Assembly (NCBI GenBank): GCA_002305315.1
Contig: DBQQ01000031.1
Location: 1 to 64,000, forward strand
Direction: 5' to 3'
From: Clostridiales bacterium UBA1390
GTDB lineage: Bacteria > Bacillota > Clostridia > Lachnospirales > Bianqueaceae
DNA: 64,000 nucleotides
Numbering within the stretch: the first letter of the stretch is position 1; each line of letters opens with the position of its first letter. Shown here piece after piece: positions 14,527 through 57,579 of this stretch. Both the position numbers and the translations under genes were made by a program. The notes under the pieces were generated by a model. That model worked only from the letters and a program-made list of their open reading frames with translations, was not told the DNA's origin and made no database searches.

Positions 14527-14892
14527 TCACTCCAGCTCTTCCAGGAAGTCTTTCAACTCCTGAATCTCCTTTTTGCTGACCGTCTTCCCATCATACAGAG
14601 CGGTCACAAAATTCTTCATAGAATTGCCATACAGCGTAGAGAAAATGGACTTGCTTTCCGCCTGCAGATATTCGTCTTCAGGCACCAGAGCAGAATACAG
14701 GTTGATCTTCCCCTGTTTCTCCATTTTGACAAACCCTTTATCTTCTAATCGTGAGAGGAACGACAGAATCGTATTGGGCAGCACTTTACGGCTGGGGTCC
14801 ATCCGAGCCTCTATTTCCATACGAGTAATCGGACCATCTGCGTTCCATATAATCATCATCAATTCTAACTCCGACTGCGGTAACCGTTTCAT
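14527..14892 (-). CDS. BlaI/MecI-family transcriptional repressor
   Basis: A 121-residue protein with the BlaI/MecI winged-helix pattern: LPQSELELMMIIWNADGPITR at the N-terminus, then TILSFLSRLEDKGFV. Family members are dimeric repressors cleaved when a BlaR1-type membrane protease is triggered. Such a protease gene lies immediately upstream on the same strand. A promoter-like TTGACA-17-CATAGT starts about 60 bp upstream of the ATG, and AGGAGG is the ribosome site. The C-terminal dimerisation region is present. Confidence 0.9.
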   Translation of the reverse strand: MKRLPQSELELMMIIWNADGPITRMEIEARMDPSRKVLPNTILSFLSRLEDKGFVKMEKQGKINLYSALVPEDEYLQAESKSIFSTLYGNSMKNFVTALYDGKTVSKKEIQELKDFLEELE

Positions 14893-14969: not shown

Positions 14970-17900
14970 TTAGATGTCTTCTACCGACACAAGTTGCTCC
15001 CCTTCGTTGGCTGGCGTCGTATAGAAGGTATAGGCTTCTACGGTGCCGCCGGCCACAAACTCATTCCGTGCCGCCTGATATTCTTCGTCCGTCAGCTGCT
15101 GTCCGTTCACCTCATAGGATTCCTCTTCTCCCATTCCGATATGGTAGGAGAAGACTTCCTGCATCTGCCCGTCGATCAGTGTGCGATACACGTAATCCTG
15201 CTCGCCGCCACACAATAGATAGGCTCTGCCATCCTTATGGAGAATCTGCACACTGGGCTGCACGCTTGTTCCAATGTTCAGTACACGGCCCGTATAAATT
15301 TGTACCGCCTGCCCGTCCTGGTACTGATAGATTTCTTCCCGGTACGCGCCTGTATATTCGTTTGCCTCATCCACCTGAGAATAAGCGCAGTAGAACTCCA
15401 TCACCCCGTCTCCGTCGAAATCCACCAGTTTGGCCATGCATAATCCCTGAAACATGGAATACACCTGCGTGGCTACGCCGTATGACATCTGCAATTCCGC
15501 CAATAATTCTCGGAATACTGTACGTTCTGGACTCTCCTCCACGGGCTGGGATGGAATCTCCACGATATCCCGCGGCTGGGCCTCGCTCCAGTCTCCGTCC
15601 CAGTCGCTGGTTGTGAGCGTCCCTGTATCTGCGGCTTCTCTAAGCGCCTCCTGTAATGCATCGATCCGCTGCTCCGCAATCTGCGCCCCAGCATCCATCT
15701 CCTGCACCCAGCCTCCCACCTCCCAGGCATTGAGCTGCTGCCTGAGTTCATTGGAACTCATTTCCACCCCATTATAGCTGCTCTGTGTACCGGCCTGCCG
15801 CCCATAATCATACTGTACCACGGGTACCATCTGCCCATCTTCCAAAGCATAATAGTATCCGCGATCCCCGATATAATCTGTGCTCCAGCGCAGATATATG
15901 CGGTTGTCTTTTTGCAGGAAGATCGTGGTGAATCCGTAGTCCCCGCTCTCTCTGGCCATCTGAGAATCCCAGAGCAAGACGGCGCCGTCTTCTGTATAGC
16001 CATAGATCTGCTCCCAATTGACGCCCCATTCGAACTCCCGATTCTCTTCCCGGAACGTACAATAGAGTTCTGCGGTCCCATCTCCATCAAAGTCGAGCAG
16101 CCGGCAGATTCCCATCTGATCGTATGTCTGTTCCAGGCCTTCGATAATATCCAGATATTCCGCGGCTATACGTCTTGTACGACTGGCCACCAGGGTACTC
16201 TCATCATAGACATAAGGTTCTACGCTGCTCCAACACGCCGCATCGGATGGCAGAATCAATTTTCCTTCTGATACGCCTGTACGGAGCGCCTCCCATGTAT
16301 CCACCGTCAAGTCCTGCATACTTTGTTCAGGCTCTTGGAAATCAATCACCTGTTCTAACGCACCCTCCAGCATATGATTCATTTGTATGCAGTAATCCTC
16401 TAATGAAAGAACCCCGCCGTTGATCTGTGCCGTCCCCTCTTCCCAGCTGGTCTCGTCATATTGCCAGATAGATTCCATCCGCCCATTGTGGAACTCCCAG
16501 AAATCTCCCTGCAATTCCGGCGTCACAGACGCCCAACGCAGCATATAACGATCATCCTGGTGAATCAACCATATCTTGGGGTCTTCTTCGGTTCCGGAAA
16601 GCGACGCCTCTTCCTCCCACAGCAGCTCAGGCTGTCCATCCCGGTACTGATAGATTCTCAGCCAGGCTGTATTCTCCCGACTGCCTGCACACAGAAGCTC
16701 CGGAACTCCATCCATGCTGAAATCCAGAAGACGAACCGTCCCCGTAACCTCATCCGGCCACAGATCCTCGACCACAGAAAGATAGGTCTGCGCCAGAAGT
16801 CCGTCTGCCGTTACCTGGGGATCCTCCGAAACAGAGTCTTCCCCCACGCTCTCCTCCGCCTGCTGTCCTATCGGCTTTTCCTCTGGAATCGACGTTCCGC
16901 TGCCCCGGCTCAGCGTGGTCAACAGGCTTGCTGCCGCCAGGCCGAGCAGAAGCACGGCGCAGATGCCATACGCCTTATGCAGCCTGTTGCCGCGAACGAC
17001 TTGGACAAAACGATCCTTCATCCGCTCGATCCGGCTCCCAAAGCAGGTGGAAAACTCCATCTTCTCCTCCTGCTTACGCACCATATACTTCAGGAGCACT
17101 TCACTGTATTCCTTGCGCTGCGCCGCTTCCATGTCCTGTACCACCTGAGAATCACAGAGAATCTCGATATCATCGCTCATCTCCCGATACATCAGAGCCG
17201 TGGCCGGATTGAACCAGTGAACGACGCGTACCAGAAGCATCAGGCTCTTCACCCAGACATCGTGCCGTTTCAAATGAGAAAGCTCATGGCGAAAGATGTA
17301 TTCCAGCTCCTTCGCGGTATAGCGTCCCTCCGGAATGACCAGAATCGGGTCTATGAGCCCCAGCATCATCGGGGATGTGATCCGCTTGCATACGCGAATC
17401 TGTACACGGTGTGTGACGCCCAGCAGATCCCGATATTCGTCAAAATATCGGCGTATTTCCTGCCCCAGCGGCGCGTAGGACCATCGCAATAAATATCTGC
17501 GCTGGTACAGATAACTCCCTAAAAACCAGACGGCCGTAATCCCCATGCCTCCTAACCAGATCCAGGGAATCATTTGCCACACAAGGTTCCAGTCGAATCC
17601 TGCTGCCGTCGCCGGCGCTTCCACGGGATTATCCACATGCCCCTGCGATGGTTCTTCATCGCGAACCGGGGAGTTCCCTCCCGTTTCCGGGATCTCTATG
17701 GAATCGGTTCCTGTATGCTCTGGCACAGACGTTTGCGCAGGAGTCTGCGGCCCCTCTGCCTCGACGGACTGCGGCAGTTCTATGGTCAGTACCGGATTGG
17801 AAATAGAAACATCAAAAGGAAGCAGCATACGCACTGCCAGCACGATCCAGAATACATATCTCCACTTCCGACCGATCCGATTGCGTAAGAGCCGTGTGAT

Positions 17901-17972
17901 TCCCGTCGCCAGCAGAATCAGCAGCCCGCATACCAGAGACACCAAGAAAAAATATGTCAGCATTTCTCTCAC
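14970..17972 (-). CDS. BlaR1-like M56 membrane metallopeptidase with a large triple-repeat ectodomain
   Basis: The 1000-residue protein starts with membrane helices (two near 1-60, one near 130-150), then the gluzincin HELSHLKRHD (about residue 228) and the downstream Glu in EMSDDIEILCD of M56/BlaR1 proteases, then a last helix near 335-355. The remaining 640 residues should be extracellular. They hold three related domains with Asp-rich loops: LLDFSMDGVPELLC (about 414), RLLDFDGDGTAELYC (about 622) and KLVDFDGDGVMEFYC (about 848). There is no penicillin-binding sensor domain. The third domain aligns well with those of the lipoproteins at 47-52 kb. Start: GTG at 17972 or ATG at 17963. It probably signals to the adjacent BlaI-type repressor. 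Confidence 0.85.
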   Translation of the reverse strand: MREMLTYFFLVSLVCGLLILLATGITRLLRNRIGRKWRYVFWIVLAVRMLLPFDVSISNPVLTIELPQSVEAEGPQTPAQTSVPEHTGTDSIEIPETGGNSPVRDEEPSQGHVDNPVEAPATAAGFDWNLVWQMIPWIWLGGMGITAVWFLGSYLYQRRYLLRWSYAPLGQEIRRYFDEYRDLLGVTHRVQIRVCKRITSPMMLGLIDPILVIPEGRYTAKELEYIFRHELSHLKRHDVWVKSLMLLVRVVHWFNPATALMYREMSDDIEILCDSQVVQDMEAAQRKEYSEVLLKYMVRKQEEKMEFSTCFGSRIERMKDRFVQVVRGNRLHKAYGICAVLLLGLAAASLLTTLSRGSGTSIPEEKPIGQQAEESVGEDSVSEDPQVTADGLLAQTYLSVVEDLWPDEVTGTVRLLDFSMDGVPELLCAGSRENTAWLRIYQYRDGQPELLWEEEASLSGTEEDPKIWLIHQDDRYMLRWASVTPELQGDFWEFHNGRMESIWQYDETSWEEGTAQINGGVLSLEDYCIQMNHMLEGALEQVIDFQEPEQSMQDLTVDTWEALRTGVSEGKLILPSDAACWSSVEPYVYDESTLVASRTRRIAAEYLDIIEGLEQTYDQMGICRLLDFDGDGTAELYCTFREENREFEWGVNWEQIYGYTEDGAVLLWDSQMARESGDYGFTTIFLQKDNRIYLRWSTDYIGDRGYYYALEDGQMVPVVQYDYGRQAGTQSSYNGVEMSSNELRQQLNAWEVGGWVQEMDAGAQIAEQRIDALQEALREAADTGTLTTSDWDGDWSEAQPRDIVEIPSQPVEESPERTVFRELLAELQMSYGVATQVYSMFQGLCMAKLVDFDGDGVMEFYCAYSQVDEANEYTGAYREEIYQYQDGQAVQIYTGRVLNIGTSVQPSVQILHKDGRAYLLCGGEQDYVYRTLIDGQMQEVFSYHIGMGEEESYEVNGQQLTDEEYQAARNEFVAGGTVEAYTFYTTPANEGEQLVSVEDI

Positions 17973-45780: not shown

Positions 45781-46332
45781 ATGAAACATATTACCACACC
45801 CTTTACCGAGTCGATCGTACGAGATCTCACATCCGGTGATACGGTCCTGATCAGCGGGACGATCTATACCGCGCGGGACGCTGCGCATAAGCGTCTGTGC
45901 GAAGCCATTGCAGAAGGCCAGCCTCTTCCCTTTGATCTCCAGGATGCCGTGATCTATTATGTGGGTCCTACCCCTCCTAAGCCGGGACAGGTTATCGGCG
46001 CCGCCGGTCCTACCACCAGCGGCCGGATGGACGCCTATGCTCCCACACTCATGGAACATGGCCTGCGGGGCATGATCGGAAAAGGGGAACGTTCCCAGAC
46101 CGTCATCGACAGTATAAAAGGTCATACTGCCGTATATCTGGCTGCTACCGGCGGTGCGGGCGCACTTCTTTCTCACTGCATCCTGGAAAGTGAAACCATT
46201 GCCTATGAGGATCTGGGTACCGAAGCCATCCGTAAGCTCACTGTCAAGGACTTTCCTGCCACTGTCGTCATCGATTGCCAGGGAAATGATCTGTATCAGA
46301 CAGCGCCTGCCGCATATCGCCGGAACGCATAG
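45781..46332 (+). CDS. Class I fumarate hydratase, beta subunit
   Basis: A 183-residue protein corresponding to the swivelling C-terminal domain of class I fumarases: SGTIYTARDAAHKRL, VIYYVGPTPP, GAAGPTTSGRMD and GGAGALLS are family hallmarks. AGGAGG precedes the ATG. It forms a two-gene operon with the alpha subunit; a terminator hairpin lies at 46417-46449. Confidence 0.93.
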   Translation: MKHITTPFTESIVRDLTSGDTVLISGTIYTARDAAHKRLCEAIAEGQPLPFDLQDAVIYYVGPTPPKPGQVIGAAGPTTSGRMDAYAPTLMEHGLRGMIGKGERSQTVIDSIKGHTAVYLAATGGAGALLSHCILESETIAYEDLGTEAIRKLTVKDFPATVVIDCQGNDLYQTAPAAYRRNA

Positions 46333-46416
46333 TGTTCTCTACATGAATAGAATGCCCTGTTGCAAAACGCCTACGATGTCTCACCATTTGCACAGGCTGA
46401 AAGAGTACGACCTCCT

Positions 46417-46449
46417 AAGGAGTTCCGTAGATACACGGACTCCTTTTTC
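46417..46449 (+). terminator. Terminator of the fumarase operon
   Basis: AAGGAGTTCCGT pairs with ACGGACTCCTT (one bulged base), followed by TTTTCT. Confidence 0.75.
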
Positions 46450-46510
46450 TATTTCCAGGACGCTTAATCAGAGTATTACGATTTCACCACCCATGGCATG
46501 GAGCCTGGTA

Positions 46511-46570
46511 CATTTTCTCATTGGTCTGGCTTCAGAAATATTACATCGCTCAAGAAGCAATGAGAAATCC
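46511..46570. repeat. Stem-loop repeat element, copy A
   Basis: TTTCTCATTG and CAATGAGAAA form 10-bp arms around a loop of about 34 nt containing TCTGGCTTCAGAAATATTAC. The reverse complement of 56303-56364 has the same plan and clear loop similarity, so both belong to one repeat family. Confidence 0.7.
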
Positions 46571-46655
46571 GGGGGTGCAATAATAAATCAAGACTGGACA
46601 CGATGAAATAATCTATATATCATGAAACAGCATTCCATGGACAGGAGGTTTACCA

Positions 46656-46745
46656 ATGAAGTATACTACGGAACAGCGCTTGGACATCGCCAAGCACGTA
46701 TAGAATAGAAAACTCACGATTGAGAAAGCTGCGCCAAATCTGTCC
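46656..46745 (+). pseudogene. IS3-type transposase OrfA N-terminal remnant
   Basis: After AGGAGG an ATG opens MKYTTEQRLDIAKHV, then TAG, then in the same frame NRKLTIEKAAPNLSI. This looks like the helix-turn-helix start of an IS3/IS150-type OrfA protein. The rest of the element is missing. Confidence 0.6.
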
Positions 46746-47009
46746 ATACATCTTTGCTTCCTATCTCCCTACAGATTTCTTCCAGACCAAAATATGTTTT
46801 ATGGTTTCTTTTGACAATGCTCCGCTTTGTTCCAGATCCTGTTTTTTCAAAAAGAAGCCATGGCTTCATCCATTTTACAACAGCCCCGTTTTCACTATGA
46901 TGCCCCTTCCTTATCGTGTAATTCCGAAACCTATGAAATACCCCATTGGCCAGGGTTCCTCATACGCTATAAAGTCATTAAATTGTAATAATACTTAATG
47001 ATTCTGTTA
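46746..47009. other. Intergenic stretch without recognised genes
   Basis: AT-rich sequence after the IS3 fragment. A 92-codon open frame (46720-46998) overlaps the fragment and has no ribosome site or family signature, so it is not called as a gene. Confidence 0.5.
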
Positions 47010-47038
47010 TTGTATTTTAGGCAGTTTCCGAATATACT
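47010..47038 (+). promoter_or_regulatory. Candidate promoter of the lipoprotein array
   Basis: TTGTAT (47010-47015), a 17-bp spacer and TATACT (47033-47038) lie about 160 bp before the first lipoprotein start. No terminator lies between the five genes, so one transcript could cover all of them. Confidence 0.5.
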
Positions 47039-47198
47039 GAAGCTAGAAGGAAACTCATCCAGGCATATGATTGTGGAGAGTTAAAAAATTTACCTTTATC
47101 TTCTACAATCGCCGTACATTTTCCTAGGTTTCCTTGAACCCGTCTTTCCGCGGATATTTACCGCATTTTGTACTCTCAGATTGATGGAGGTGTTGATC

Positions 47199-48119
47199 AT
47201 GAGAAAAAGTTTATCTTTTATCCTTTCGATTCTTCTCGTCCTGACCCTTTGCCTGAGTGGATGTAATCCCTCTGAACCAGAGGAACCCAGCGCCTCTCTC
47301 GAGGAAAGCTCTGTGCCAGAAAAGTCTTCTCAGCCGGAAGAGAGTTCCGTTCCTGAGGAATCTTCACAGCCTGAAGAGAGTTCTGTGCTTGAAGAGTCCT
47401 CTCTGCCGGAAGAAAGTTCCGTGCCTGATGAGTCCTCTCAACCGGAACAGAATTCTGTTCCTGAAGAGTCTTCTCTGCCGGAGGAGAGTTCCGTGCCGGA
47501 AGATCCTTCCCTCTCCGTAGAACGTCCCGCCTCTCCTTCTGCTGGCGATACAGAAGAGATGCTTGCCGCTTTCCGTGATATTGTTGCCTCTCTTGAAGAA
47601 GAACATGGCAAGACAACCGGTAAGGCAGATGGTCTCTGCTTCGTCAAGCTCATCGATCTGGATCGTGATGGCGTGGATGAACTCTTCTGTGCTTGGGAGG
47701 TAGACCAATACTGTTCCTATATGACCGAAATCTACCAATGGATTGATAATGAGGTTGTTTTACTTCATCAGGAGCCCAGTTATAATATTGGTACCAGTAT
47801 CCAGCCTTGTGTATGTTTCTACATCGGAGAAGATACGGTTTACATTCCATATGGCAGCGAGAATTATTATGAGTATAAATCTTTAATCAATCATAAGATT
47901 GAAACTGCTTTTACAACGTATTATTCTCAGGGTTATCCACTTTCCCCTGATGCTGGCCCCCACGAAATCAATGGAACCCCTTATCTTACCTATGATGAAT
48001 ATGCGCAAGCCATAGATGATTTAATTGGGGACATGGAAAGAGTTTATTATGAATTTATCGATATTGATAACGAACTCTTTCCTGAAGAGCATCCTCCTGT
48101 CATCATTGAAGTATTCTGA
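47199..48119 (+). CDS. Stalked lipoprotein 1 of a five-gene tandem array
   Basis: A protein of about 306 residues: signal peptide with lipobox LCLSGC (Cys near 20), a linker NPSEPEEPSAS, a low-complexity stalk of about 11 hexapeptide units (SSVPEE/SSQPEE type, residues 33-105), a short PSLSVERPASPSAGDTEE joint and a globular C-terminal domain of about 180 residues with the Asp-rich loop KLIDLDRDGVDELFCAWEV. The stalk is acidic, extended and probably spans the cell wall. The C-terminal domain resembles the third ectodomain repeat of the BlaR1-like protein at 14970-17972. GGAGG precedes the ATG. Function unknown. Confidence 0.85.
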   Translation: MRKSLSFILSILLVLTLCLSGCNPSEPEEPSASLEESSVPEKSSQPEESSVPEESSQPEESSVLEESSLPEESSVPDESSQPEQNSVPEESSLPEESSVPEDPSLSVERPASPSAGDTEEMLAAFRDIVASLEEEHGKTTGKADGLCFVKLIDLDRDGVDELFCAWEVDQYCSYMTEIYQWIDNEVVLLHQEPSYNIGTSIQPCVCFYIGEDTVYIPYGSENYYEYKSLINHKIETAFTTYYSQGYPLSPDAGPHEINGTPYLTYDEYAQAIDDLIGDMERVYYEFIDIDNELFPEEHPPVIIEVF

Positions 48120-48145
48120 CAGAAATCACCAAGGAGGTGCTGATC

Positions 48146-49006
48146 ATGAGAAAAAGTTTTTCTCTTATCCTTTCGATTCTGCTCGTCCTGACCCTTTGCC
48201 TGGGTGGATGTAATCCCTCTGAACCAGAGGAACCCAGTGCCTCTCTCGAAGAAAGCTCTATACCTGAAGAGAGTTCTGTGCTTGAAGAGTCTTCTCTGCC
48301 GGAGGAAAGTTCCGTTCCGGAGGAATCTTCTCTGCCGGAGGAAAGCTCTGTTCCTGAGGAATCTTCGCAACCTGAAGAGAGTTCTGCGTCGGAAGAGTCC
48401 TCTCTGCCGGAGGAGAGTTCCATGCCTGAAGATCCTTCCCTCTCCGTAGAGCGTCCCGCTTCTCCTTCTGCTGGCGATACAGAAGAGATGCTGGCCGCTT
48501 TCCGCGATGTTGTTGCCTCTCTTGAAGAAGAACATGGCAAGACAACCGGGAAGGCAGATGGTCTCTGCTTTGTCAAGCTCATCGATCTGGATCGTGATGG
48601 CGTGGATGAACTCTTCTGTGCTTGGGCTGTTATTCCCTCTATTCAATATCAAAATGTTATTTACCAATGGCAAGATGGTCAGCCTGTTCTTCTCCTTGAA
48701 CGAACAGGATTTAACCAGGGAACCGGTATACAGCCTAAAATCGTCTTCTATGTAGGAGACGACACCACGTATCTAAAATACGGTTCTGAAATGCAAGACG
48801 AATATCTTGCATTAATCGATCATGAAATAACGACCGTTGCAACAACTTCTTACACATTTGGAGCAGAATCCCAACTTTTTAACGGTACTGCTTATTCTGA
48901 TGAAGAATTCCGCGAAAAACTAGATACTTTCTTGAATGACACAGAGTGTATTACTTATGAATTTGATCCTTCGTCTCCAGCCTATGTTATGGTAGAGACT
49001 TTCTAG
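48146..49006 (+). CDS. Stalked lipoprotein 2
   Basis: A protein of about 286 residues with the same plan as its neighbours: nearly identical signal peptide (lipobox LCLGGC), the shortest stalk of the array (about 10 hexapeptide units) and the KLIDLDRDGVDELFCAW domain. After that loop the sequence diverges strongly from copies 1, 3 and 4 (VIPSIQYQNVIYQWQDG, then GFNQGTGIQPKIVFYVG). The preceding intergenic segment with AAGGAGGTGCTGATC is shared with other copies at the DNA level. The divergent C-terminal half suggests a different binding specificity. Confidence 0.85.
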   Translation: MRKSFSLILSILLVLTLCLGGCNPSEPEEPSASLEESSIPEESSVLEESSLPEESSVPEESSLPEESSVPEESSQPEESSASEESSLPEESSMPEDPSLSVERPASPSAGDTEEMLAAFRDVVASLEEEHGKTTGKADGLCFVKLIDLDRDGVDELFCAWAVIPSIQYQNVIYQWQDGQPVLLLERTGFNQGTGIQPKIVFYVGDDTTYLKYGSEMQDEYLALIDHEITTVATTSYTFGAESQLFNGTAYSDEEFREKLDTFLNDTECITYEFDPSSPAYVMVETF

Positions 49007-49025
49007 AAAGCAGGAGGTGTTGATC

Positions 49026-50054
49026 ATGAGAAAAAGTTTGTCTCTTATCCTTTCGATTCTGCTCGTCCTGACCCTTTGCCTGGGTGGATGTAATCCCTCT
49101 GAACCAGAGGAACCCAGTGCCTCTCTCGGGGAAAGCTCTATTCCTGAAGAGAGTTCTGTGCCGGAAGAATCTTCTCAGCCAGAAGAAAGTTCCGTTCCCG
49201 AAGAGTCTTCGCAACCGGAGGAGAGTTCTGTTCCTGAGGAATCTTCTCTGCTGGAGGAAAGCTCTATTCCAGAAGAGTCCTCTCAACCGGAAGAAAGTTC
49301 TGTTCCTGAGGATTCTTCGCAACCGGAAGAAAGTTCCGTTCCTGAAGATTCCTCTCAACCGGAAGAGTCTTCCGTTCCTGAGGATTCTTCTCTGCCGGAG
49401 GAAAGCTCTATTCCAGAAGAATCCTCTCAGCCGGAGGAGAGTTCCGTGCCTGAAGATCCTTCCCGCTCCGTAGAGCGTCCCGCTTCTCCTTCTGCTGGCG
49501 ACACAGAAGAGATGCTTGCCGCTTTCCGCGATATTGTTGCCTCTCTTGAAGAAGAACATGGCAAGACAACCGGGAAGGCAGATGGTCTCTGCTTTGTCAA
49601 ACTCATCGATCTGGATCGTGATGGTGTGGATGAACTCTTCTGTGCTTGGGAGGTTGCCCAGTACAACTTCTATATGACCGAAATCTACCAATGGATTGAT
49701 AACGAGGCTGTTTTACTCCACCAGGAAACCAGTTTTAATCAGGGTACCAGTGTTCAGCCTACTGTTCGCTTCTACATCGGGGATGATACGGTTTATATTC
49801 CATATGGTCATGAAAACTATTATGAGTATAGAGCTTTGATTGATCATAAGGTCGAAACTTCTTTTACAGTGTTTTATTCTTTTGATTCCGACAATGCCCA
49901 TGAGGTTAATGGCATTCCTTGTACTACATATGATGAATTTATGCAAGCCCTCGATGATATATTAGGTGATATGGAAGCGTTGAATTATCACTTCATCGAT
50001 ATTACCTATCCCTATGCTGATGAGTTTCCTCCTGTCTTCATTGAAGTATTCTAA
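49026..50054 (+). CDS. Stalked lipoprotein 3
   Basis: A protein of about 342 residues: signal peptide, a long stalk of about 18 hexapeptide units including SSVPED variants, and the Asp-loop domain. The C-terminal domain (FCAWEVAQYNFYMTEIYQW, then NQGTSVQPTVRFYIGDD) is very close to copy 4, including the last 20 residues, and fairly close to copy 1. The 19-bp gap after copy 2 holds only a ribosome site, so it is in the same operon. Confidence 0.85.
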   Translation: MRKSLSLILSILLVLTLCLGGCNPSEPEEPSASLGESSIPEESSVPEESSQPEESSVPEESSQPEESSVPEESSLLEESSIPEESSQPEESSVPEDSSQPEESSVPEDSSQPEESSVPEDSSLPEESSIPEESSQPEESSVPEDPSRSVERPASPSAGDTEEMLAAFRDIVASLEEEHGKTTGKADGLCFVKLIDLDRDGVDELFCAWEVAQYNFYMTEIYQWIDNEAVLLHQETSFNQGTSVQPTVRFYIGDDTVYIPYGHENYYEYRALIDHKVETSFTVFYSFDSDNAHEVNGIPCTTYDEFMQALDDILGDMEALNYHFIDITYPYADEFPPVFIEVF

Positions 50055-50080
50055 CAGAAATCACCAAGGAGGTGTTGATC

Positions 50081-51127
50081 ATGAGAAAAAGTTTATCTCT
50101 TATCCTTTCAATTCTGCTCGTCCTGACCCTTTGCCTGGGTGGATGTAATCCCTCTGAACCAGAGGAACCCAGTGCCTCTCTCGAGGAAAGCTCTATGTCA
50201 GAAAAGTCTTCTCAGCCGGAAGAAAGTCCCGTGCCGGAAGAGTCCTCTCAACCGGAGGAGAGTTCTGTGCTTGAAGAGTCCTCTCAACCGGAAGAAAGTT
50301 CTGTTCCGGAGGAATCTTCTCTACCAGAGGAGAGTTCCGTTCCTGAAGATTCCTCTCAACCGGAAGAGTCTTCCGTTCCGGAGGAATCTTCTCTGCCGGA
50401 GGAAAGCTCTGTTCCTGAGGAATCTTCTCTGCCGGAGGAAAGCTCTGTTCCTGAGGAATCTTCGCAACCTGAAGAGAGTTCTGCGTCGGAAGAGTCCTCT
50501 CAGCCGGAGGAAAGTTCTGTTCCCGAAGATCCTTCCCTCTCCGTAGAACGTCCCGCCTCTCCTTCTGCTGGCGATACAGAAGAGATGCTTGCCGCTTTCC
50601 GCGATGTCGTTGCCTCTCTTGAAGAAGAACATGGCAAGACAACCGGGAAGGCAGATGGTCTCTGTTTCGTCAAGCTCATCGATCTGGATCGTGATGGTGT
50701 GGATGAACTCTTCTGTGCTTGGGAGGTTGCCCAGTACAACTTCTATATGACCGAAATCTACCAATGGATTGATAACGAGGCTGTTTTGCTTCACCAGGAA
50801 ACCGGTTTTAATTATGGTACCAGTGTTCAGCCTACTGTTCGCTTCTACATCGGGGATGATACCGTTTATATTCCATACGGTCATGCCAACTATTATGAAT
50901 ATAGATCTTTAGTCAATCATAAGATCGAAACTGCTTTTACCTTATATCAACCTTATGATCCGGATCAATTAAATGAGATCAACGGTGTCCCCTATTCTAC
51001 CTTCGATGAATATACACAGGCTCTAGAAAATCTATTAGATGATATGGAAGAAGTAAATTATCACTTCATCGATATCACCTATCCCTATGCTGATGAGTTT
51101 CCTCCTGTCTTCATTGAAGTATTCTGA
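50081..51127 (+). CDS. Stalked lipoprotein 4
   Basis: A protein of about 348 residues with the longest stalk (about 19 hexapeptide units) and a C-terminal domain nearly identical to copy 3 over its first half and its last 20 residues, with a variable patch between (LYQPYDPDQLNEINGVPYS). The mosaic of identical and variable blocks suggests gene conversion between copies 3 and 4. Signal peptide and ribosome site as in the others. Confidence 0.85.
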   Translation: MRKSLSLILSILLVLTLCLGGCNPSEPEEPSASLEESSMSEKSSQPEESPVPEESSQPEESSVLEESSQPEESSVPEESSLPEESSVPEDSSQPEESSVPEESSLPEESSVPEESSLPEESSVPEESSQPEESSASEESSQPEESSVPEDPSLSVERPASPSAGDTEEMLAAFRDVVASLEEEHGKTTGKADGLCFVKLIDLDRDGVDELFCAWEVAQYNFYMTEIYQWIDNEAVLLHQETGFNYGTSVQPTVRFYIGDDTVYIPYGHANYYEYRSLVNHKIETAFTLYQPYDPDQLNEINGVPYSTFDEYTQALENLLDDMEEVNYHFIDITYPYADEFPPVFIEVF

Positions 51128-51153
51128 CAGAAATCACCAAGGAGGTGTTGATC

Positions 51154-52116
51154 ATGAGAAAAAGTGTATCTTTCATCCTTTCGATTCTACTTGTCCTGAC
51201 CCTTTGCCTGGGTGGATGTAATCCCTCTGAACCAGAGAAACCCAGTGCCTCTCTCGAGGAAAGCTCTGTGCCAGAAAAGTCTTCTCAGCCGGAAGAGAGT
51301 TCCGTGCCGGAGGAATCTTCTCTGGTTGATGAAAGTTCCATTCCAGAAGAGTCTTCACAACCTGAAGAGAGTTCTGTTCCGGAAGAGTCCTCTCAACCGG
51401 AGGAGAGCTCTGTACCAGAAGAGTCCTCTCAGCCGGAAGAAAGTTTTGTGCCTGATAAGTCTTCTCAACCGGAAGAGAGTTCTGCGTCCGAGGAATCTGC
51501 GCCTGAGGAATCCCTAGAAACAATAGAAGGCGTCTACCTTGAAATCATTAATGACTTGATTCATGAATATGGAGAGGGTACAATTGCAAGTCAGTCTGAT
51601 CCATATCCTCAAGAAGCTCTTGTTGGCCTTGTTGTTGCAAAGCTGATTGATTTTGATCAAGATGGACAACCAGAATTGTTCTGCAGTTATAGAAGTATGG
51701 ACGATGCCTTTGCCCCCATTGCTCACCAAACAGTTTATGGAGTAAAAAATGGTTCTGTCCAAATCCTGTTTCACGAAGATGCTGGTTCTAAAGGAGGCGC
51801 GAATCCAGGCTCTACCATTCAAATTCACAACGATGGTACTCCTTACATTTTTCGTTATGATGGATCCGTCGTCGATTATCTAACCCTGCAGGATGATGAA
51901 TTTATCTTGGCTCATCAGATAAATTATGACTCCTCTTCTTGGGATGACTCGCAGATGACATCTCAAGAACTCTCTGAATATCTCAATGAATTTTGGATGG
52001 ATGCCTCCACTCCTGTTTCTGTATGGTATCTGAATCCTGATGCTACAGACTTCTCTCAGATACTTCTAGATACGCAAGCTACTATACAATCCCTGCAGAA
52101 AATGGCAAATGCGTAA
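51154..52116 (+). CDS. Stalked lipoprotein 5, divergent C-terminal domain
   Basis: A protein of about 320 residues. The signal peptide and stalk (about 13 units, ending SASEESAPEESLETIE) belong to the array, but the PSLSVERPASPS joint is missing and the C-terminal domain is only distantly related. It keeps AKLIDFDQDGQPELFCSY and a later GSTIQIHNDGTPYIF, and is otherwise distinct. This looks like the array's 5' cassette joined to another member of the domain family. A strong terminator follows at 52132-52166. Confidence 0.85.
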   Translation: MRKSVSFILSILLVLTLCLGGCNPSEPEKPSASLEESSVPEKSSQPEESSVPEESSLVDESSIPEESSQPEESSVPEESSQPEESSVPEESSQPEESFVPDKSSQPEESSASEESAPEESLETIEGVYLEIINDLIHEYGEGTIASQSDPYPQEALVGLVVAKLIDFDQDGQPELFCSYRSMDDAFAPIAHQTVYGVKNGSVQILFHEDAGSKGGANPGSTIQIHNDGTPYIFRYDGSVVDYLTLQDDEFILAHQINYDSSSWDDSQMTSQELSEYLNEFWMDASTPVSVWYLNPDATDFSQILLDTQATIQSLQKMANA

Positions 52117-52131
52117 TATGGTGTTTTATGG

Positions 52132-52166
52132 AAAACAGGTGGTTTTGCAAAAACCACCTGTTTGTT
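52132..52166. terminator. Bidirectional terminator between lipoprotein array and lysis cassette
   Basis: AAACAGGTGGTTTT pairs with AAAACCACCTGTTT over a 3-nt loop, flanked by A-rich and T-rich sequence. Confidence 0.85.
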
Positions 52167-52179
52167 TATAACGTTCCTT

Positions 52180-53487
52180 TTAAGCAACCTGCAGCATGTC
52201 TTTCCAGGTTGCAATACCAATAATTCCATCGGCTACCAAGCCATGATCCTGCTGATACTGAATCGTTGCATTGACACTTTCTGTCCAGAAATCTCCATCA
52301 ATACCGGAGTTAGGCAGAGAATATCCATACGCTACCAGCATGGTCTGTGCAAATGTTGCCAAGGGTCCCATTGTCCCTTTTTCGACCTCTGCGTATACCG
52401 CTACAGATGCTGTTTCATTACCCCAGATGCCATCTACCGTAATCTGGGCTACTCCTGCGTCGCAGACAGCCTGCTGAAACATTCGAATATAATCCCGACG
52501 TCCGGATACTGGAATCTTAATTTCCTGTCCAACATAGATTGTATCTGGATCCGAGATGCTATTAAATGCCGCGACTTCTGCGACTGTCAGGCCATAGGAC
52601 ACTGCGATCCTTCCCAATGAATCCCCACTTTTTACAGTATACGTGGTATAACTCTGACTGCTTCCTGTGGGAATATAAAGGACTTGCCCTACATAAATCA
52701 GATTTACATCACTGATTCCATTGTAATCAGCAATAGCCTGCGCCGTTGTACCATATCTGGCCGCAATATCATTCAGTGTATCTCCTTCCTGGACGATATA
52801 AGTGATCACATCGGGATCCTCAGGCTCTTCTGGCTCCGTTACTTCTGTATTAGGGATGTAGAAAACATCACCTGTTTGAATGTCATTAGGATCACTAATT
52901 TGATTCTGATTTATAATCCACTCCACTGGTACATCATACTTCGCGGCAATTCCATTAAGTGTATCAGAGGATTCTACCATATGCCAGGTTCCGTGCTCAT
53001 CTGAATCAAATAAAGGGTAACCATAGCCAGAAATATCCGTACTATTAATATCATGTTTTCTAGCTTTTACACTACTAGTCCAATTTCCCTCAATTGTATA
53101 TACGTACCCAGCTCGTATAGCAATCACAATTCCCGTATGATCTACTCCAAATACAACTTGTGCTCCTACTTTTGGAGTTGAACCCCATCTTCCATTTCGA
53201 CTATACAATCTCTCAAGATAGGCACATCCTGCCCGTAAAGAAGAGTAGGGATCTTGATTGAACAACATCTGCACCGCTTTGTTAAAACCAAATGTCTTTA
53301 CGTAACACCAGTCATGAAAAATTGTACACCAATCCGCACCATTCTTTTTCGTATTGAACCATTCTGTCCATCCCGGTTTGGTATCAAAGTCATTTGCATA
53401 TTTATTCCATCGTCCGGTACTCGTTGAACTTTCAGTATATCCAAGTTCTCCAACTGCTGTCTGAATCAGTCTATCAATTTGTGTCAT
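52180..53487 (-). CDS. Phage-type endolysin: CHAP-like amidase, three LysM, peptidoglycan-binding end
   Basis: A protein of about 435 residues without a signal peptide. Residues 1-165 look like a CHAP-type NlpC/P60 fold: ADWCTIFHDWCY (catalytic Cys near 53), VDHTGIVIAI (His) and IEGNW (Asn). Three LysM modules follow (near 170-212, 228-272 and 280-325, each ending in YIP or IKIP). The last 110 residues resemble peptidoglycan-binding domains (VDGIWGNETAS, DGDFWTESVNATIQYQQDHG). It should cleave peptidoglycan cross-bridges after release by the adjacent holin. AAGGAG precedes the ATG; the longer frame to 53604 runs into the holin gene. Confidence 0.9.
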   Translation of the reverse strand: MTQIDRLIQTAVGELGYTESSTSTGRWNKYANDFDTKPGWTEWFNTKKNGADWCTIFHDWCYVKTFGFNKAVQMLFNQDPYSSLRAGCAYLERLYSRNGRWGSTPKVGAQVVFGVDHTGIVIAIRAGYVYTIEGNWTSSVKARKHDINSTDISGYGYPLFDSDEHGTWHMVESSDTLNGIAAKYDVPVEWIINQNQISDPNDIQTGDVFYIPNTEVTEPEEPEDPDVITYIVQEGDTLNDIAARYGTTAQAIADYNGISDVNLIYVGQVLYIPTGSSQSYTTYTVKSGDSLGRIAVSYGLTVAEVAAFNSISDPDTIYVGQEIKIPVSGRRDYIRMFQQAVCDAGVAQITVDGIWGNETASVAVYAEVEKGTMGPLATFAQTMLVAYGYSLPNSGIDGDFWTESVNATIQYQQDHGLVADGIIGIATWKDMLQVA

Positions 53488-53516
53488 ATTCTTTATTCTC
53501 CTTTTCTCATCATATT

Positions 53517-53723
53517 TTATTCCTGTACCTCTGACAGACCGGCTATACTCGTCAACATGGATAACAATCCCGCGAGTAATGCCGTGCTGCCTACCATGAT
53601 CCAATCTACTTCATTCAACACGACTGCGGTTCCAATCGTTGCCAATGCTGTCTGCGCAATGGTTTTGATGGCACGAGCGGATGCAGCACAGAACCAGCGG
53701 CTCCATTTGGAACGCTCCTTCAT
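53517..53723 (-). CDS. Phage holin (phi-LC3/PF04531-like)
   Basis: A protein of about 68 residues: a basic start (MKERSKWSRWF), two membrane helices (ALATIGTAVVL and WIMVGSTALLAGLLSML) with a short turn and an acidic end. This is the usual small holin plan. AAAGGGAG gives best spacing to the ATG at 53723; two starts six and nine bases upstream are possible. It sits between the XhlA-like gene and the endolysin gene. Confidence 0.85.
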   Translation of the reverse strand: MKERSKWSRWFCAASARAIKTIAQTALATIGTAVVLNEVDWIMVGSTALLAGLLSMLTSIAGLSEVQE

Positions 53724-53738
53724 TTTCATCACTCCCTT

Positions 53739-54053
53739 TCATAAGTTGATTCCAAATTGCATCAGGATGTAGGCAAGAAGTGCTCCTGCGAGCGCTGTCA
53801 TGACATAGCGCGATACGCTGCGCCACTTCTCCCCATCCCGACCTTCTAGCCGTTTTAGACGATTTCCCTGTTCGACTTGCTCCAACGCCATTCTCTCCAT
53901 ACTCACTGCTAATTTCTCGACAGATATTGTCAACACTGATGTTTGACGCACGGTCTCTTCCAACAGATTCAGCCGGTGATTCTGACGTCTATCCTCTGCC
54001 TCAATGCGCCGTACAAACTCGTCATGTTCTGCACGGCCAATATAATCCTCCAT
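53739..54053 (-). CDS. XhlA-like coiled-coil membrane protein of the lysis cassette
   Basis: A protein of about 104 residues: a long amphipathic helix (HDEFVRRIEAEDRRQNHRLN, then a hydrophobic-heptad stretch) ending in a single C-terminal membrane helix (YVMTALAGALLAYILMQFG). This matches XhlA/haemolysin-type proteins that accompany holins in PBSX-like lysis modules. The first gene of the cassette; GAGGAGGTG precedes the ATG at 54053. Confidence 0.75.
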   Translation of the reverse strand: MEDYIGRAEHDEFVRRIEAEDRRQNHRLNLLEETVRQTSVLTISVEKLAVSMERMALEQVEQGNRLKRLEGRDGEKWRSVSRYVMTALAGALLAYILMQFGINL

Positions 54054-54158
54054 AATCTCTTCACCTCCTCTCGGTTCGGTGGATTCCATCGCCAGCAAGC
54101 CTAAATTTATACATTGGGCCTGAGCGCTCTTCCGCTGGCAATTCTTTCTAAATGTCTC

Positions 54159-54304
54159 TTGACAGAGGCTAAGATTCCTTATATAATTAGGATTAGATCT
54201 TAGCTATTCAGAAAACCGTTATATGCGGCGTAGTGTAGCTTCGATTTCTTAGCTACAATCATAGTATAGCAAAGCTTTCTGTGTTTGTCAACCCTTTTTG
54301 ACAA
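54159..54304. promoter_or_regulatory. Divergent promoter/operator region of the lysis cassette
   Basis: Plus strand: a perfect TTGACA (54159-54164), 17 bp, TATAAT (54182-54187) toward the repressor. Minus strand: TTGACA (54291-54286), 17 bp, TATACT (54268-54263) toward the lysis genes. The minus -35 lies in the inverted repeat TTGTCAA-CCCTTT-TTGACAA (54285-54304), and just beyond its start site is GTAGCT-TCGATTTCTT-AGCTAC (54237-54258). TTAGCTA words recur near 54201. The layout resembles a phage CI operator region. Confidence 0.7.
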
Positions 54305-54340
54305 AGTTTTTTTAGTTATTTTACGAAAGGAACCTGAGAT

Positions 54341-54799
54341 ATGTATGAGATATTCGAAAAACTGCTGAAAGAACGAGGGATCACCGCCTATCGCGTGGCT
54401 CAGGAAACAGGAGTGACTACTTCCACACTGACCAGTTGGAAACAGGGCAAATATGTTCCTAAAATGGATAAATTAAGAAAAATCGCCGATTATCTTCAGG
54501 TTTCGGTAGAATACCTGATGACAGGGGAAGAATCTGCAAAAGATGCTGCATCGCCTCAGCTAACACCTTCCGAAGAGCATGATATTGCTAAAAAAATGGC
54601 TGTTTTAATTGGTGAACTGAATCAGCGCAATGAAGCTCTTATGTTTAATGGTGAACCATTGGATGACGAATCTCGAGAACTTCTTCGAGAAAGTCTGGAA
54701 AATAGTCTTCGGATCGGCAAGCTCTTAGCTAAGAAAAAATACACTCCTCATAAATATCAAACACTTAAGGGAAGTGATACGGATGAAAGAGCAGATTAA
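54341..54799 (+). CDS. CI-like XRE-family repressor
   Basis: A 152-residue protein. Residues 1-62 form a Cro/CI-type helix-turn-helix (ERGITAYRVAQETGVTTSTL, then SWKQGKYVPKMDKLRKIADYL) and the remainder is a helical region (about 80 residues) without an autocleaving LexA/CI peptidase domain. That fits repressors inactivated by a separate ImmA protease, whose gene overlaps its 3' end by 17 bp. It probably represses the divergent lysis genes. AAAGGAAC precedes the ATG. Confidence 0.9.
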   Translation: MYEIFEKLLKERGITAYRVAQETGVTTSTLTSWKQGKYVPKMDKLRKIADYLQVSVEYLMTGEESAKDAASPQLTPSEEHDIAKKMAVLIGELNQRNEALMFNGEPLDDESRELLRESLENSLRIGKLLAKKKYTPHKYQTLKGSDTDERAD

Positions 54800-55214
54800 A
54801 AAACGGGTCCTATCCCTCGTTTCCCAATACCATACGCAGGATCCTGTTGAACTGGCAGAATCTCTGAATATTCTTGTCCTTTTCGAAGATCTCGGCCAGA
54901 TAGGTGGATATTATAATACTGCCTATCGTCAAAAAATGATTCATATTAACCATCGCCTATCGGATCCTATGCGTAAATTCACAGCAGCGCATGAATTGGG
55001 CCATGCCTTACTTCACCCGCATATGAACACAACCTTTCTGCGAACCAATACCTATTTTTCTGTGGATGCATTTGAACGTCAGGCCAATACATTTGCGGCT
55101 TATCTTTTAATTTCTGATGAAGATCTTCGCGAAAATGCGCATCTGACGCAGGAACAGTATGCGAAGCTACTGGGGTATCCCCAGCCATTGATCGCATTGC
55201 GGTTATCATTATGA
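54783..55214 (+). CDS. ImmA/IrrE-family metallo-endopeptidase
   Basis: A 143-residue protein with the HExxH zinc motif in AAHELGHALLHPHM (near residue 75) and the family's later FERQANTFAAYLLI segment. ImmA-type proteases cleave the cognate repressor in response to stress, as in ICEBs1. It is translationally coupled to the CI-like gene (17-bp overlap; ATG at 54783 preferred over the GTG at 54774). It should switch the lysis cassette on. Confidence 0.92.
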   Translation: MKEQIKKRVLSLVSQYHTQDPVELAESLNILVLFEDLGQIGGYYNTAYRQKMIHINHRLSDPMRKFTAAHELGHALLHPHMNTTFLRTNTYFSVDAFERQANTFAAYLLISDEDLRENAHLTQEQYAKLLGYPQPLIALRLSL

Positions 55215-55460
55215 TAGTCCACCCTCTTATCCGGTTGGCTGAAATATTGGAAGCGTCTTACAGCGAATTGCTGGGGGCAAAAATTGAAAGTGAAAATACC
55301 GCCAGTGATGTCGCAGAACAGTTGTCAAGGATAAATGAGTAGCTTGTAATCAAAAATAGCCGCTCACGCCGTATTTGGAAAATCGTTGCCATTATATTGG
55401 CGGCTATAGTTTTATAAACATTTTCATTGCCGTGTTTTCAGCGTTCCAAACCTCAATGAA
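55211..55460 (+). pseudogene. Decayed XRE/membrane regulator fragment
   Basis: An ATG overlapping the immA stop opens a 43-codon frame (VHPLIRLAEILEASYSELLG ... EQLSRINE) that ends in TAG at 55340. The same frame continues as LVIKNSRSRRIWKIVAII, then a frameshift leads to INIFIAVFSAFQT. This looks like the end of a helix-turn-helix domain, a linker and a membrane helix of a clostridial XRE-type regulator, with the N-terminal helix-turn-helix missing. A terminator-like hairpin lies at 55594-55628. Confidence 0.6.
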
Positions 55461-55593
55461 GGCCTTCAGAGCAATCAGCCAGAGGTAACTGGTCAAACAC
55501 AAAACATAGACGAATGAATGGCCAAGACAGCGGAGCCCGTCAGTCTGATCAGACTTTACAAAATTAAATATCCGTCGCCATTGGAGACCAGTG

Positions 55594-55628
55594 AAAGCAG
55601 CATGTCTGAAAAAGATGTGCTGCTTTTT
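55594..55628 (+). terminator. Terminator-like hairpin
   Basis: AAAGCAGCA (55594-55602) pairs with TGCTGCTTT (55618-55626) and is followed by TTA. It can end the repressor/immA transcript. Confidence 0.65.
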
Positions 55629-55749
55629 ATGTTCGTTTAGCATTTTAGAAAAAAGTATCTGACATGCGCTTATCATATGCCTTACATTAATTTGATTGAA
55701 TATTTCAGCCGTTACAGGCTATAATTTTCAATGAAAAGGAGTGGTCAAT

Positions 55750-56082
55750 ATGGAGATCAAAAGAGACAGTTATCTGCAGCAGCTCATATCCTATCGTTTT
55801 GATGGACTGGTGAAGGTCATTACCGGGATCCGTCGGTGCGGCAAATCCTATCTGCTAATGAATCTATATAAAGATTACCTGCTGCGCAGCGGCGTCAAGG
55901 AAGACCAGATCATCGTGATCCAGCTGGATCTTGCTAAAGATATCAGATACCGCAACCCGCTAGAGCTATCTGCCTATGTCCGCAGCATGGTGGAAGGCAA
56001 GAACGAAGAGTTCTATTTATTCGTTGATGAAATCCAGATGTCGGATAAGGGTATCCGAAAAAGAAGGTCCCTGCTCTTTTAA
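55750..56082 (+). pseudogene. Truncated AAA ATPase (AAA_14/DUF4143 type)
   Basis: The 110 residues cover the N-terminal ATPase half: VKVITGIRRCGKSYLLMNLY (Walker A) and FYLFVDEIQMSD (Walker B). Full-length members have about 400 residues with a C-terminal DUF4143 domain, which is absent. After Walker B the sequence changes to KGIRKRRSLLF and stops, so the gene was cut and joined to unrelated DNA. AAAAGGAG and ATG at 55750 are intact. Confidence 0.75.
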
Positions 56083-56412
56083 TTTCAGATCCTTTAGATC
56101 CCTCTTCAGCCTCAATGCCGATCTTCATACCGAAAAATGTCAGCATCTCCTTCACAGACCATCCTTATCAATAAAAAAGCCCGGATTTCTCCAGGCAAAG
56201 AAAAAAGCCGACTTCTCGGCTCATCGTAATTTAGCATAACTAAAAAATCTGATTTAGCGGTCTAGCCGCATCCAGGCTGCCATGTATGATTTCTTTCTTC
56301 AATCCATTTTCTCATTAGTCTACGCCTTATGTAACATTTTCTGCGCCAAACTAATGAGAAAACTGCCTATACTCATCAGCGCGCGGTGCTATAAAACAAC
56401 TCCATTCTCTTC
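56083..56412. other. Intergenic stretch with decayed sequence and a stem-loop repeat
   Basis: About 330 bp without a supported gene. It contains a small hairpin near 56198-56225 (AAAAGCCGA/TCGGCT) and the stem-loop repeat at 56303-56364. Confidence 0.5.
56303..56364. repeat. Stem-loop repeat element, copy B
   Basis: TTTTCTCATTAGT (56307-56319) and ACTAATGAGAAAA (56350-56362) form perfect 13-bp arms. On the minus strand the loop reads TTGGCGCAGAAAATGTTACAT, similar to the loop of copy A at 46511-46570. Confidence 0.75.
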
Positions 56413-57579
56413 CTATAGTCTATGCGGTCCGTCTCCGATAGAGACGCTGTAGAAATCGGCTGCGTAGCCGATCTGCTTCAGATACGCAGTGCCGACTGCC
56501 CGCATGAAGTCATCCACACACTCTTCCCGTACCAGGCTGATCGTACAGCCGCCAAAGCCAGCGCCCGTCATGCGGGAACCCAATACGCCGGGTTGTTTCC
56601 AGGCAGTTTCTACCAGGGTATCCAATTCCTTACCCGTCACTTCATAATCATCGCGTAAGGATCTATGGGAAGCATTCATCAGCTGACCGAACTGTTCCAG
56701 ATCCCCCTGCTGTAAGGCGGATACCGCCTGAATCGTTCTCTGATTCTCTGTCACCGCATGTCTGGCTCGGCGGCGCTGCACAGGGTCTGCAATGTTTTCT
56801 GCAAGCGCTTCAAACTCTTCTGTGGTCAGGTCTCCCAGGCTTTGAATCGGCTTTACTTTCTGGATCTGCGCAAGCGCTGCCTCGCACTCGCTGCGCCGTT
56901 CATTATACTTAGAATCGGCCAGTCCCCGTTTTTTATTGCTGCAGGCAATGACCAGACGCATTCCCTGTAAAGATAAGGGTACATACGTATACGACAGATC
57001 TGCCGTATCCAGGAAAATCGCGTGATCCTTCTTTCCCATCGCGATGGCAAACTGATCCATGATTCCACAGTTAACGCCATTGAACTCATTCTCTGCCTTT
57101 TGTGTCAGTTTGGCCAAGGTAACGCCATCCATCTTCCAACCGAACTGGTCCAGTAAAATCTTACCCGTCAGCACTTCAATGCAGGCAGAAGAAGAAAGCC
57201 CCGCGCTATTCGGCAAGTTGCCATGATATAAGATATCCAGACCCCGCGGCAATGTGTAGCCAGCCTCTTGAAACGCCCAGACTACACCCTTGGGATAATT
57301 GCACCAGTCATCTTCTTTTTGATAGCACAGTGCATCCAACGAGATCATCCTAGGAGGTTGATCCGGAAAATTCATAGAAAAAAGACGCAGATTCCTGTCC
57401 TTTCTGGGACGTACCGCCGCCCAGGTTCCGATGGTCAGTGCACAAGGAAACACGTGCCCCCCATTATAATCCGTATGCTCTCCGATCAGATTCACACGTC
57501 CCGGAGCAAAGTAACAGGAGATTTCTCCACCCTCTCCCAGCGTTTTGATAAACTCGTCTTGTAGTCTCTCAACTTCCAT
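56413..57579 (-). CDS. galK: Galactokinase
   Basis: A 388-residue GHMP kinase with the galactokinase signature GRVNLIGEHTDYNGG near residue 30, the ATP-binding LPNSAGLSSSA near 125 and the C-terminal GSRMTGAGFGGC. It phosphorylates galactose to galactose-1-phosphate in the Leloir pathway. No galT or galE lies nearby. GGAGG inside the end of the upstream lipoprotein gene serves as the ribosome site, so the two are cotranscribed with a two-base gap. Confidence 0.96.
   Translation of the reverse strand: MEVERLQDEFIKTLGEGGEISCYFAPGRVNLIGEHTDYNGGHVFPCALTIGTWAAVRPRKDRNLRLFSMNFPDQPPRMISLDALCYQKEDDWCNYPKGVVWAFQEAGYTLPRGLDILYHGNLPNSAGLSSSACIEVLTGKILLDQFGWKMDGVTLAKLTQKAENEFNGVNCGIMDQFAIAMGKKDHAIFLDTADLSYTYVPLSLQGMRLVIACSNKKRGLADSKYNERRSECEAALAQIQKVKPIQSLGDLTTEEFEALAENIADPVQRRRARHAVTENQRTIQAVSALQQGDLEQFGQLMNASHRSLRDDYEVTGKELDTLVETAWKQPGVLGSRMTGAGFGGCTISLVREECVDDFMRAVGTAYLKQIGYAADFYSVSIGDGPHRL

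Follow-up and report, generated by a model that had tools for sequence, protein, structure and literature searches.

A tandem array of stalked lipoproteins beside a phage-type endolysin gene in a Clostridiales genome: possible wall-spanning inhibitors of peptidoglycan hydrolases

In pneumococcal fratricide, the CHAP-type murein hydrolase CbpD is paired with an immunity protein, ComM, under competence control. Pilin and Vls silent-cassette systems join a constant 5' part to a variable 3' part by recombination between copies. To our knowledge, most of the protein inhibitors described for peptidoglycan hydrolases come from Gram-negative bacteria. Published reports describe XAC2610 as a lipobox-bearing protein of propeller topology with an acidic calcium loop, which inhibits the hydrolase XAC2609 and is 7% identical to Tsi1 and 12% identical to PliI (PMC10933484, PMC6536674). 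In Listeria, a phage-derived locus with XRE regulators pairs a metzincin with a TIMP-like lipoprotein, and the latter reportedly alters sensitivity to phage lysis (PMC8235301). Here, we analyze five tandem lipoprotein genes in a 64,000-nucleotide stretch (the window; positions 1 to 64,000 of contig DBQQ01000031.1) from Clostridiales bacterium UBA1390. We tentatively propose that the five proteins are anchored in the membrane, span the wall, and inhibit peptidoglycan hydrolases, and that they would thereby provide immunity against the neighboring endolysin and the variants of relatives, a reading that we consider a real possibility but short of probable.

Architecture and evolution of the array

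The array is compact. All five genes lie on one strand with 19 to 26 bp between neighbors, and they probably constitute a single operon with a 14-bp inverted repeat at its end (Table 1), probably a terminator shared with the convergent endolysin gene. A reading of the letters alone (the sequence-only reading) had described five consecutive genes with a common leader and ribosome site, and that description is borne out: the first 105 nt are identical at 97 to 102 positions in 10 of 10 gene pairs, as are 13 to 20 of the 20 nt that precede the start codon. Each of the five proteins carries a lipobox (LCLGGC or LCLSGC, read by eye), an export signal that XAC2610 also has. Behind it come Ser/Glu/Pro-rich stalks that measure 71, 65, 113, 119, and 86 amino acids in genes 1 to 5 (from ...PSASL to the linker of the C-terminal domain [CTD]), or 11.8, 10.8, 18.8, 19.8, and 14.3 hexapeptides. 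The claim of predicted surface lipoproteins on unequal stalks (65 to 119 amino acids) is supported, and the hexapeptide unit stands as well, although the count becomes 11 to 20 rather than about 10 to 19.

The stalk DNA contains arrays with periods of 18, 36, and 72 nt (Tandem Repeats Finder). When the genome was searched with the whole proteins, the stalk also matched on nine other contigs, and EESS-type linkers were confirmed in two of those proteins that were read (C55 and C12). Thus, the stalk is a local habit and no signature of the array. Genes 2 and 5 each have a near-identical protein cluster (P0022, representing eight contigs, and P0028, representing five), and therefore these two genes, at least, are no artifact of a single assembly.

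How the array evolved is reflected in a sharp boundary inside the CTD. In genes 1 to 4, synonymous divergence (dS) is 0 to 0.21 from the leader through CTD residue 52 and 0.43 to saturation in the remaining CTD, where saturation was reached between gene 2 and each of genes 1, 3, and 4. Likewise, CTD residues 1 to 52 are 98 to 100% identical and the remainder is 37 to 78% identical. Among genes 1, 3, and 4, the ratio of nonsynonymous to synonymous divergence (dN/dS) of the CTDs is 0.22 to 0.29 (Nei-Gojobori), indicative of purifying selection. We also compared 27 leader-bearing population proteins of types 1 to 5 with the window copy of the same CTD type. The leader was 92 to 100% identical in 8 of the 27 and 62 to 80% identical in the other 19, where the CTD was 77 to 99% identical; 17 of these 19 had CTDs conserved at 89 to 99%, and the other two (77 to 79%) are broken records. 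Window copies of different types have leaders 88 to 95% identical and CTDs 24 to 83% identical, and in population sequences, too, alike leaders and stalks are joined to differing CTD types. The comparison of types and stalks leaves out P0021, P0025, P0035, and P0036, in which the script found no CTD start; that of leaders additionally leaves out P0004, P0007, and P0015, which lack a leader, and P0029, which is of type 6. We conclude from these sequence comparisons that the 5' half is under concerted evolution and that the CTD types are lasting.

Recombination between copies, as the sequence-only reading had supposed, accords with the homogenized leader and first 52 CTD residues and with the sharing of leaders and stalks across CTD types. 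That reading had also called for a comparison of stalk length across relatives, and the lengths do differ within types: measured from GCNPS to the CTD, they are 89, 100, or 124 amino acids for type 1 (full-length records), 76 to 131 for type 3, 100 to 137 for type 4, and 62 to 92 for type 5. Its suggestion of a variable antigen, however, is only partly supported, and an open-ended one finds no support. With the leader as sole query, 26 proteins were retrieved, 25 of them with CTD types 1 to 5 (24 by script and the frame-broken P0025 by eye), and the sole sixth-type CTD, in P0029, resembles by eye the CTDs of G002:C115. A repertoire so nearly closed argues against open-ended antigenic variation, as does CTD purifying selection. 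Moreover, none of the window copies lacks a leader or a ribosome site, and the layout is therefore not that of silent cassettes.

A few records fall outside this scheme. P0009, in which a gene-4 stalk is joined to a gene-3 CTD, is represented by one record, on a contig of 1 kb, and could be a chimera made in assembly. P0035 and P0036, whose contigs are shorter than 1.8 kb, resemble headless type-5 CTDs and were not relied on. In the sister species (G002:C12; L049, 4753-5361), a type-5 CTD frame 86% identical to gene 5 has no leader, stalk, or ribosome site; it may be a remnant that is silent or else mark a junction in the assembly. The host of the array is a clostridial bacterium of the gut with kinship to Candidatus Faecimorpha: P0018, a record under that name, has a CTD 96% identical to that of gene 1; the genus name is reportedly mentioned in a chicken gut study.

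The C-terminal domain and its relatives

The CTDs of genes 1 to 4 are 57 to 83% identical among themselves, and that of gene 5 is 24 to 28% identical to the others. An iterated hidden Markov model found 36 CTD copies in the window and 12 fetched loci, 23 of which were aligned (alignment A1; 13 were left out). In the Asp-rich loop that had been noticed in the array, D39, D43, and E47 (gene-4 CTD numbering) are invariant in 23 of 23 aligned CTDs. Positions 60/61 hold an aromatic residue or His in 18 of 23. AlphaFold predicts a small, propeller-like fold, and in the gene-4 model a loop at 56 to 58 follows the acidic-loop strand. XAC2610 and PliI are among the weak, nonsignificant structural matches of the model. 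The VIA ranges are compatible with the predicted acidic loop lying over residues 151 to 159 of XAC2610, a correspondence of ranges and not a residue-level alignment. Thus, the structure prediction that the sequence-only reading had recommended gave a fold, but the profile searches gave no family at cutoff and the structural matches were not significant.

Database searches with the CTD were otherwise negative. Pfam and NCBIfam did not recognize the array CTD at cutoff, their matches to the whole lipoproteins being weak and mostly to stalk or leader (e.g., Drf_FH1). The CTD sequence matched no curated family or solved relative, and what a PDB sequence search returned, such as Cullin-1, looks like chance. 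A viral structure library held no significant match, and PADLOC offered nothing credible for the CTDs. FG-GAP was absent from the array proteins or below the Pfam cutoff (gene 5, 13.1 bits versus 26.9), and FG-GAP_3 matched 12 of the 23 CTDs at E values up to 1, the best being 5e-4.

Outside the array, the CTD occurs in a lone lipoprotein, in paired or multidomain lipoproteins of genus genomes G001 and G002, and at the C termini of BlaR1-like M56 proteins. The lone lipoprotein (G000:C42; L056, 6162-7118) has counterparts in G002, G005, G009, and G012, reaching a second genus. In G002, as in the present genome (G000), it is found near a GH95 glycoside hydrolase gene and, by eye, a peptidyl-prolyl isomerase-like gene. 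It may represent the ancestral form. Across the order, with no more than 8 candidates scored per genome, 42 of 392 genomes had a CTD match at an E value of 0.001, most of them weak. Strong matches were confined to this genus and one related genus, except for G118 and G336, and six remote loci that were read look like ordinary secreted proteins.

The insert, its lysis genes, and a sensor with the same domain

Alignment of the flanks with G002 shows the array to be part of an insert between fumarase (PF05681/PF05683) and galactokinase genes, which lie side by side in that species. Besides the array, the insert carries an endolysin-like gene, a holin gene, an accessory lysis gene that we take to be XhlA-like, and divergent genes for an XRE repressor and an ImmA-type protease (Table 1). 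The endolysin matches PHROGs endolysin families (including phrog_9589 over residues 41 to 200), had no CHAP match in the Pfam scan, and likely starts near 53487 (by eye). Judged from consensus matches only, the promoters and inverted repeat of the switch region have the layout expected of a CI-like switch. A 17-nt imperfect direct repeat, first seen by eye and then located, lies near both ends of the insert (46511-46527 and 56305-56321) and is a possible junction repeat; a repeat tool set to 18 nt or more found, besides the stalk families, one 24-nt pair away from the insert ends. Also present are an AAA_14 ATPase piece and open reading frames (ORFs) without a match. No integrase or head or tail gene was recognized among the insert ORFs scanned, some small ORFs lying outside the scan. 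Near the left end, the start of a transposase-like frame (46656-46700, by eye) meets an early stop. The window edge (1-197) is a tandem repeat with a 104-nt unit.

The same gene order recurs in the genus. Lipoprotein and endolysin genes converge, and XRE and ImmA genes follow in one direction, in three of three genus genomes, with the G001 regulators assigned by similarity only. In G002, an approximately 6.2-kb module of ImmA, XRE, Hol44-type holin, endolysin, and two lipoprotein genes sits between a NUDIX gene and tRNA-Trp, a site occupied by 557 bp of other sequence in G000:C42. G001:C272 has lipoprotein, endolysin, XRE-like, and ImmA-like genes in the same order; no holin was recognized there, and the last two genes have no Pfam match but are similar to those of G002 (64% over 75 amino acids and 47% over 156 amino acids). 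The holins are not of one family, that of G000 being of the r1t type and that of G002 of the Hol44 type. BLAST shows no similarity between the G000 ImmA and the other three, and it aligns the G000 XRE with two of three over 43 to 46 residues only. The G000 and G002 endolysins are 90% identical in the wall-binding half and 38% identical in the catalytic part. CHAP was above cutoff in the G002 endolysin by Pfam scan; a genome-wide CHAP search (10 matches in three genomes, including the G001:C272 endolysin) missed that protein, and its counts were not used. Three of the six ImmA/IrrE genes above cutoff in the three genomes adjoin CTD lipoproteins.

The CTD also forms part of a BlaR1-like sensor elsewhere in the window, in which three tandem copies stand where the antibiotic-sensing part would be; unlike the array proteins, this sensor passes the FG-GAP cutoff as a whole protein. 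Apart from it and the adjoining BlaI-type gene, no M56 or BlaI gene was found in G000, and the same holds for the counterpart pair in G002. At least four of five M56 proteins of G001 have the CTD, and two G001 loci (L057 and L058; G001:C277 and C309) hold tandem pairs of sensors, each sensor with two to four CTDs. A search for TACA/TGTA patterns in the 200 and 300 nt upstream found no BlaI operator common to sensor and array.

Table 1. Features of the window, by position
Feature	Position	Strand	Remarks
BlaI-type repressor	14536..14877	-	Adjoins M56 sensor; PF03965 7.0e-25
BlaR1-like M56 sensor	14970..17972	-	Peptidase_M56 3.6e-48; C-terminal part is three tandem CTDs
Insert limits relative to G002	46325..56423		Flank alignment; 10.1 kb here, 60 bp in G002
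Lipoprotein 1	47199..48119	+	306 aa; stalk ~47301-47513; CTD ~47541-48116, type 1
Lipoprotein 2	48146..49006	+	286 aa; stalk ~48248-48442; CTD ~48470-49003, type 2
Lipoprotein 3	49026..50054	+	342 aa; stalk ~49128-49466; CTD ~49494-50051, type 3
Lipoprotein 4	50081..51127	+	348 aa; stalk ~50183-50539; CTD ~50567-51124, type 4; AlphaFold model
Lipoprotein 5	51154..52116	+	320 aa; stalk ~51256-51513; CTD ~51511-52113, type 5 (remote); AlphaFold model
14-bp inverted repeat, loop GCA	52133..52163		Read by eye, absent from the list of the consensus scan; separates convergent lipoprotein and endolysin genes; probable shared terminator
Endolysin-like gene	52180..53604	-	Amidase-like N terminus, three LysM, PG_binding_1 (Pfam LysM/PG_binding_1)
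Holin (Phage_r1t_holin)	53517..53732	-	PF16945 3.1e-13; phrog_443 holin 4.8e-14
Accessory lysis gene, PHROG "hemolysin"	53739..54098	-	phrog_937 6e-15; no Pfam match
Switch region	54159..54305		Both strands carry sigma-70-like promoters (12/12 and 11/12); consensus matches only
Inverted repeat TTTGTCAA-N6-TTGACAAA	54284-54305		Covers -35 of the lysis promoter
XRE/CI-type repressor	54341..54799	+	HTH_3 1.2e-11; divergent from lysis genes
ImmA/IrrE-type metalloprotease (Peptidase_M78)	54774..55214	+	PF06114 1.2e-22

Readings of the locus and comparison with known systems

How the array and the lysis genes might work together can be outlined from their arrangement. In ImmA systems, a repressor is inactivated by an ImmA-type protease. 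Here, such inactivation of the XRE repressor would cause some cells to lyse and release endolysin. On surviving kin, the lipoproteins would hold their CTDs at several depths of the wall, as stalks of 62 to 137 amino acids, extended at about 3 Å per residue, would place them some 20 to 40 nm out from the membrane, a distance of the order of a Gram-positive wall. The enzyme may be plugged by the CTD loop next after the acidic-loop strand, and copies would exchange leader and stalk while the target-facing part remained distinct. The BlaR1-like sensor may detect such enzymes through the same CTD and derepress BlaI-controlled genes. A toxin-immunity pair fits because the genes converge, share an insert, and combine a divergent endolysin catalytic part with differing CTD types. 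Three observations weigh on the other side: the CTD fold matches are weak and inconsistent, the CTD occurs elsewhere without an adjacent endolysin, and the dN/dS values of the CTD (0.22 to 0.29) give no sign of positive selection. Among the functions put forward by the sequence-only reading, competition fits best, although the lysis cassette, the regulators, and the BlaR1-like sensor had escaped it. More doubtful is the full picture of a mobile lysis-and-immunity island in gut-dwelling Gram-positives, in which a domesticated holin-endolysin weapon, an XRE/ImmA switch, and an inhibitor array with stalk-set reach would be joined by a chromosomal BlaR1-like receptor that senses wall-lytic enzymes with the same domain.

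The nearest rival keeps the inhibitors but changes their target. The array might act on foreign enzymes, whether lysozyme from the host animal, the bacteriocin lysins of competitors, or endolysins of phages; the BlaR1-like protein would then be their detector and the lysis cassette cotransferred cargo. RsiV is a precedent for a Gram-positive lysozyme receptor, and here the CTD makes up the C-terminal part of an M56 sensor whose neighbor is BlaI. Moreover, single CTD lipoproteins with no endolysin seen adjacent occur in five genomes, and those relatives that bear a name are of animal-gut origin (Candidatus Faecimorpha and a roe deer rectum metagenome-assembled genome). The convergent order with an endolysin gene in three of three genus genomes is left unexplained, however, and we consider this alternative unlikely. 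About as unlikely, in our estimate, is that the CTDs are extracellular ligand-binding or adhesive modules (for a glycan, calcium, or a wall polymer) on spacers, with the BlaR1-like protein sensing the same ligand. The FG-GAP_3 matches in 12 of 23 CTDs, the above-cutoff match of the whole M56 protein, and the mostly weak remote relatives among the order's genomes, of ordinary secreted appearance in the six loci read, all suit such modules. This reading leaves unexplained why the lipoproteins form a genetic unit with holin, endolysin, XRE, and ImmA genes and why there are two different insertion sites.

Degraded-prophage cargo, that is, a leftover lysis cassette and repressor with lipoproteins such as superinfection-exclusion proteins, is quite improbable. 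In its favor, the endolysin and holin, the hemolysin-family gene, the CI-like repressor, and the metalloprotease have matches in phage families, the G002 copy adjoins a tRNA gene, and the 17-nt imperfect repeat lies near both insert ends (46511 and 56305). However, 2.9 million viral contigs scanned for the pattern gave 25 matches, none confirmed, the one array protein scanned had no PHROG match, and the insert ORFs scanned, not every small one among them, included no recognized integrase or head or tail gene. Least probable is a variable surface antigen for immune evasion, which homogenized leaders, mosaic sequences, variable stalk length, and the headless type-5 CTD of G002 might recall, but which a nearly closed CTD set, conserved at 89 to 99% between lineages in 17 of 19 records, and a leader and ribosome site on every window copy with no silent cassettes speak against.

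If the proposed immunity is real, the array would be a new way of shielding the Gram-positive cell surface and would reveal how a cell whose wall is exposed can withstand a lysin that it or its kin release, with relevance to lysin-based antibacterials. In titles and abstract openings, a literature search found no description of a stalked lipoprotein array beside a holin-endolysin cassette, nor of a BlaR1-like sensor with such domains. The sensor makes directly testable what else M56 receptors sense. The pair at 14536-17972 shares with BlaR1/MecR1 and BlaI/MecI an M56 metalloprotease sensor and an adjacent BlaI-type repressor; it differs in having three array-family CTDs at the C terminus and, in a Pfam scan that matched only M56 and FG-GAP, no penicillin-binding domain. 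With pilin and Vls, the array has in common a constant 5' part, a variable 3' part, and recombination between copies, but each of its copies has its own start and leader, and its 3' types are few and stable. CbpD and ComM are a parallel in kind, a wall hydrolase released among Gram-positive kin together with a membrane immunity protein, as is here proposed; ComM, however, is an integral membrane protein with no stalk and no such domain, whereas the array encodes stalked lipoproteins. The Listeria pair likewise combines XRE regulators and an inhibitor-like lipoprotein at a phage-derived locus but has a single lipoprotein; its enzyme is a protease and not an endolysin, and sensitivity is reportedly raised rather than lowered (PMC8235301). 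XAC2610, Tsi1, and PliI resemble the array proteins in export and may share with them a propeller topology, an acidic loop (in XAC2610, where it binds calcium), and a similarly placed candidate inhibitory loop (PMC10933484, PMC6536674). No sequence relation to them is detectable, the structural match is nonsignificant, and inhibition by the array is a prediction. What would set the array apart is its Gram-positive host, its five stalked copies, and a phage-type endolysin in place of a type IV or type VI secretion system (T4SS/T6SS) effector.

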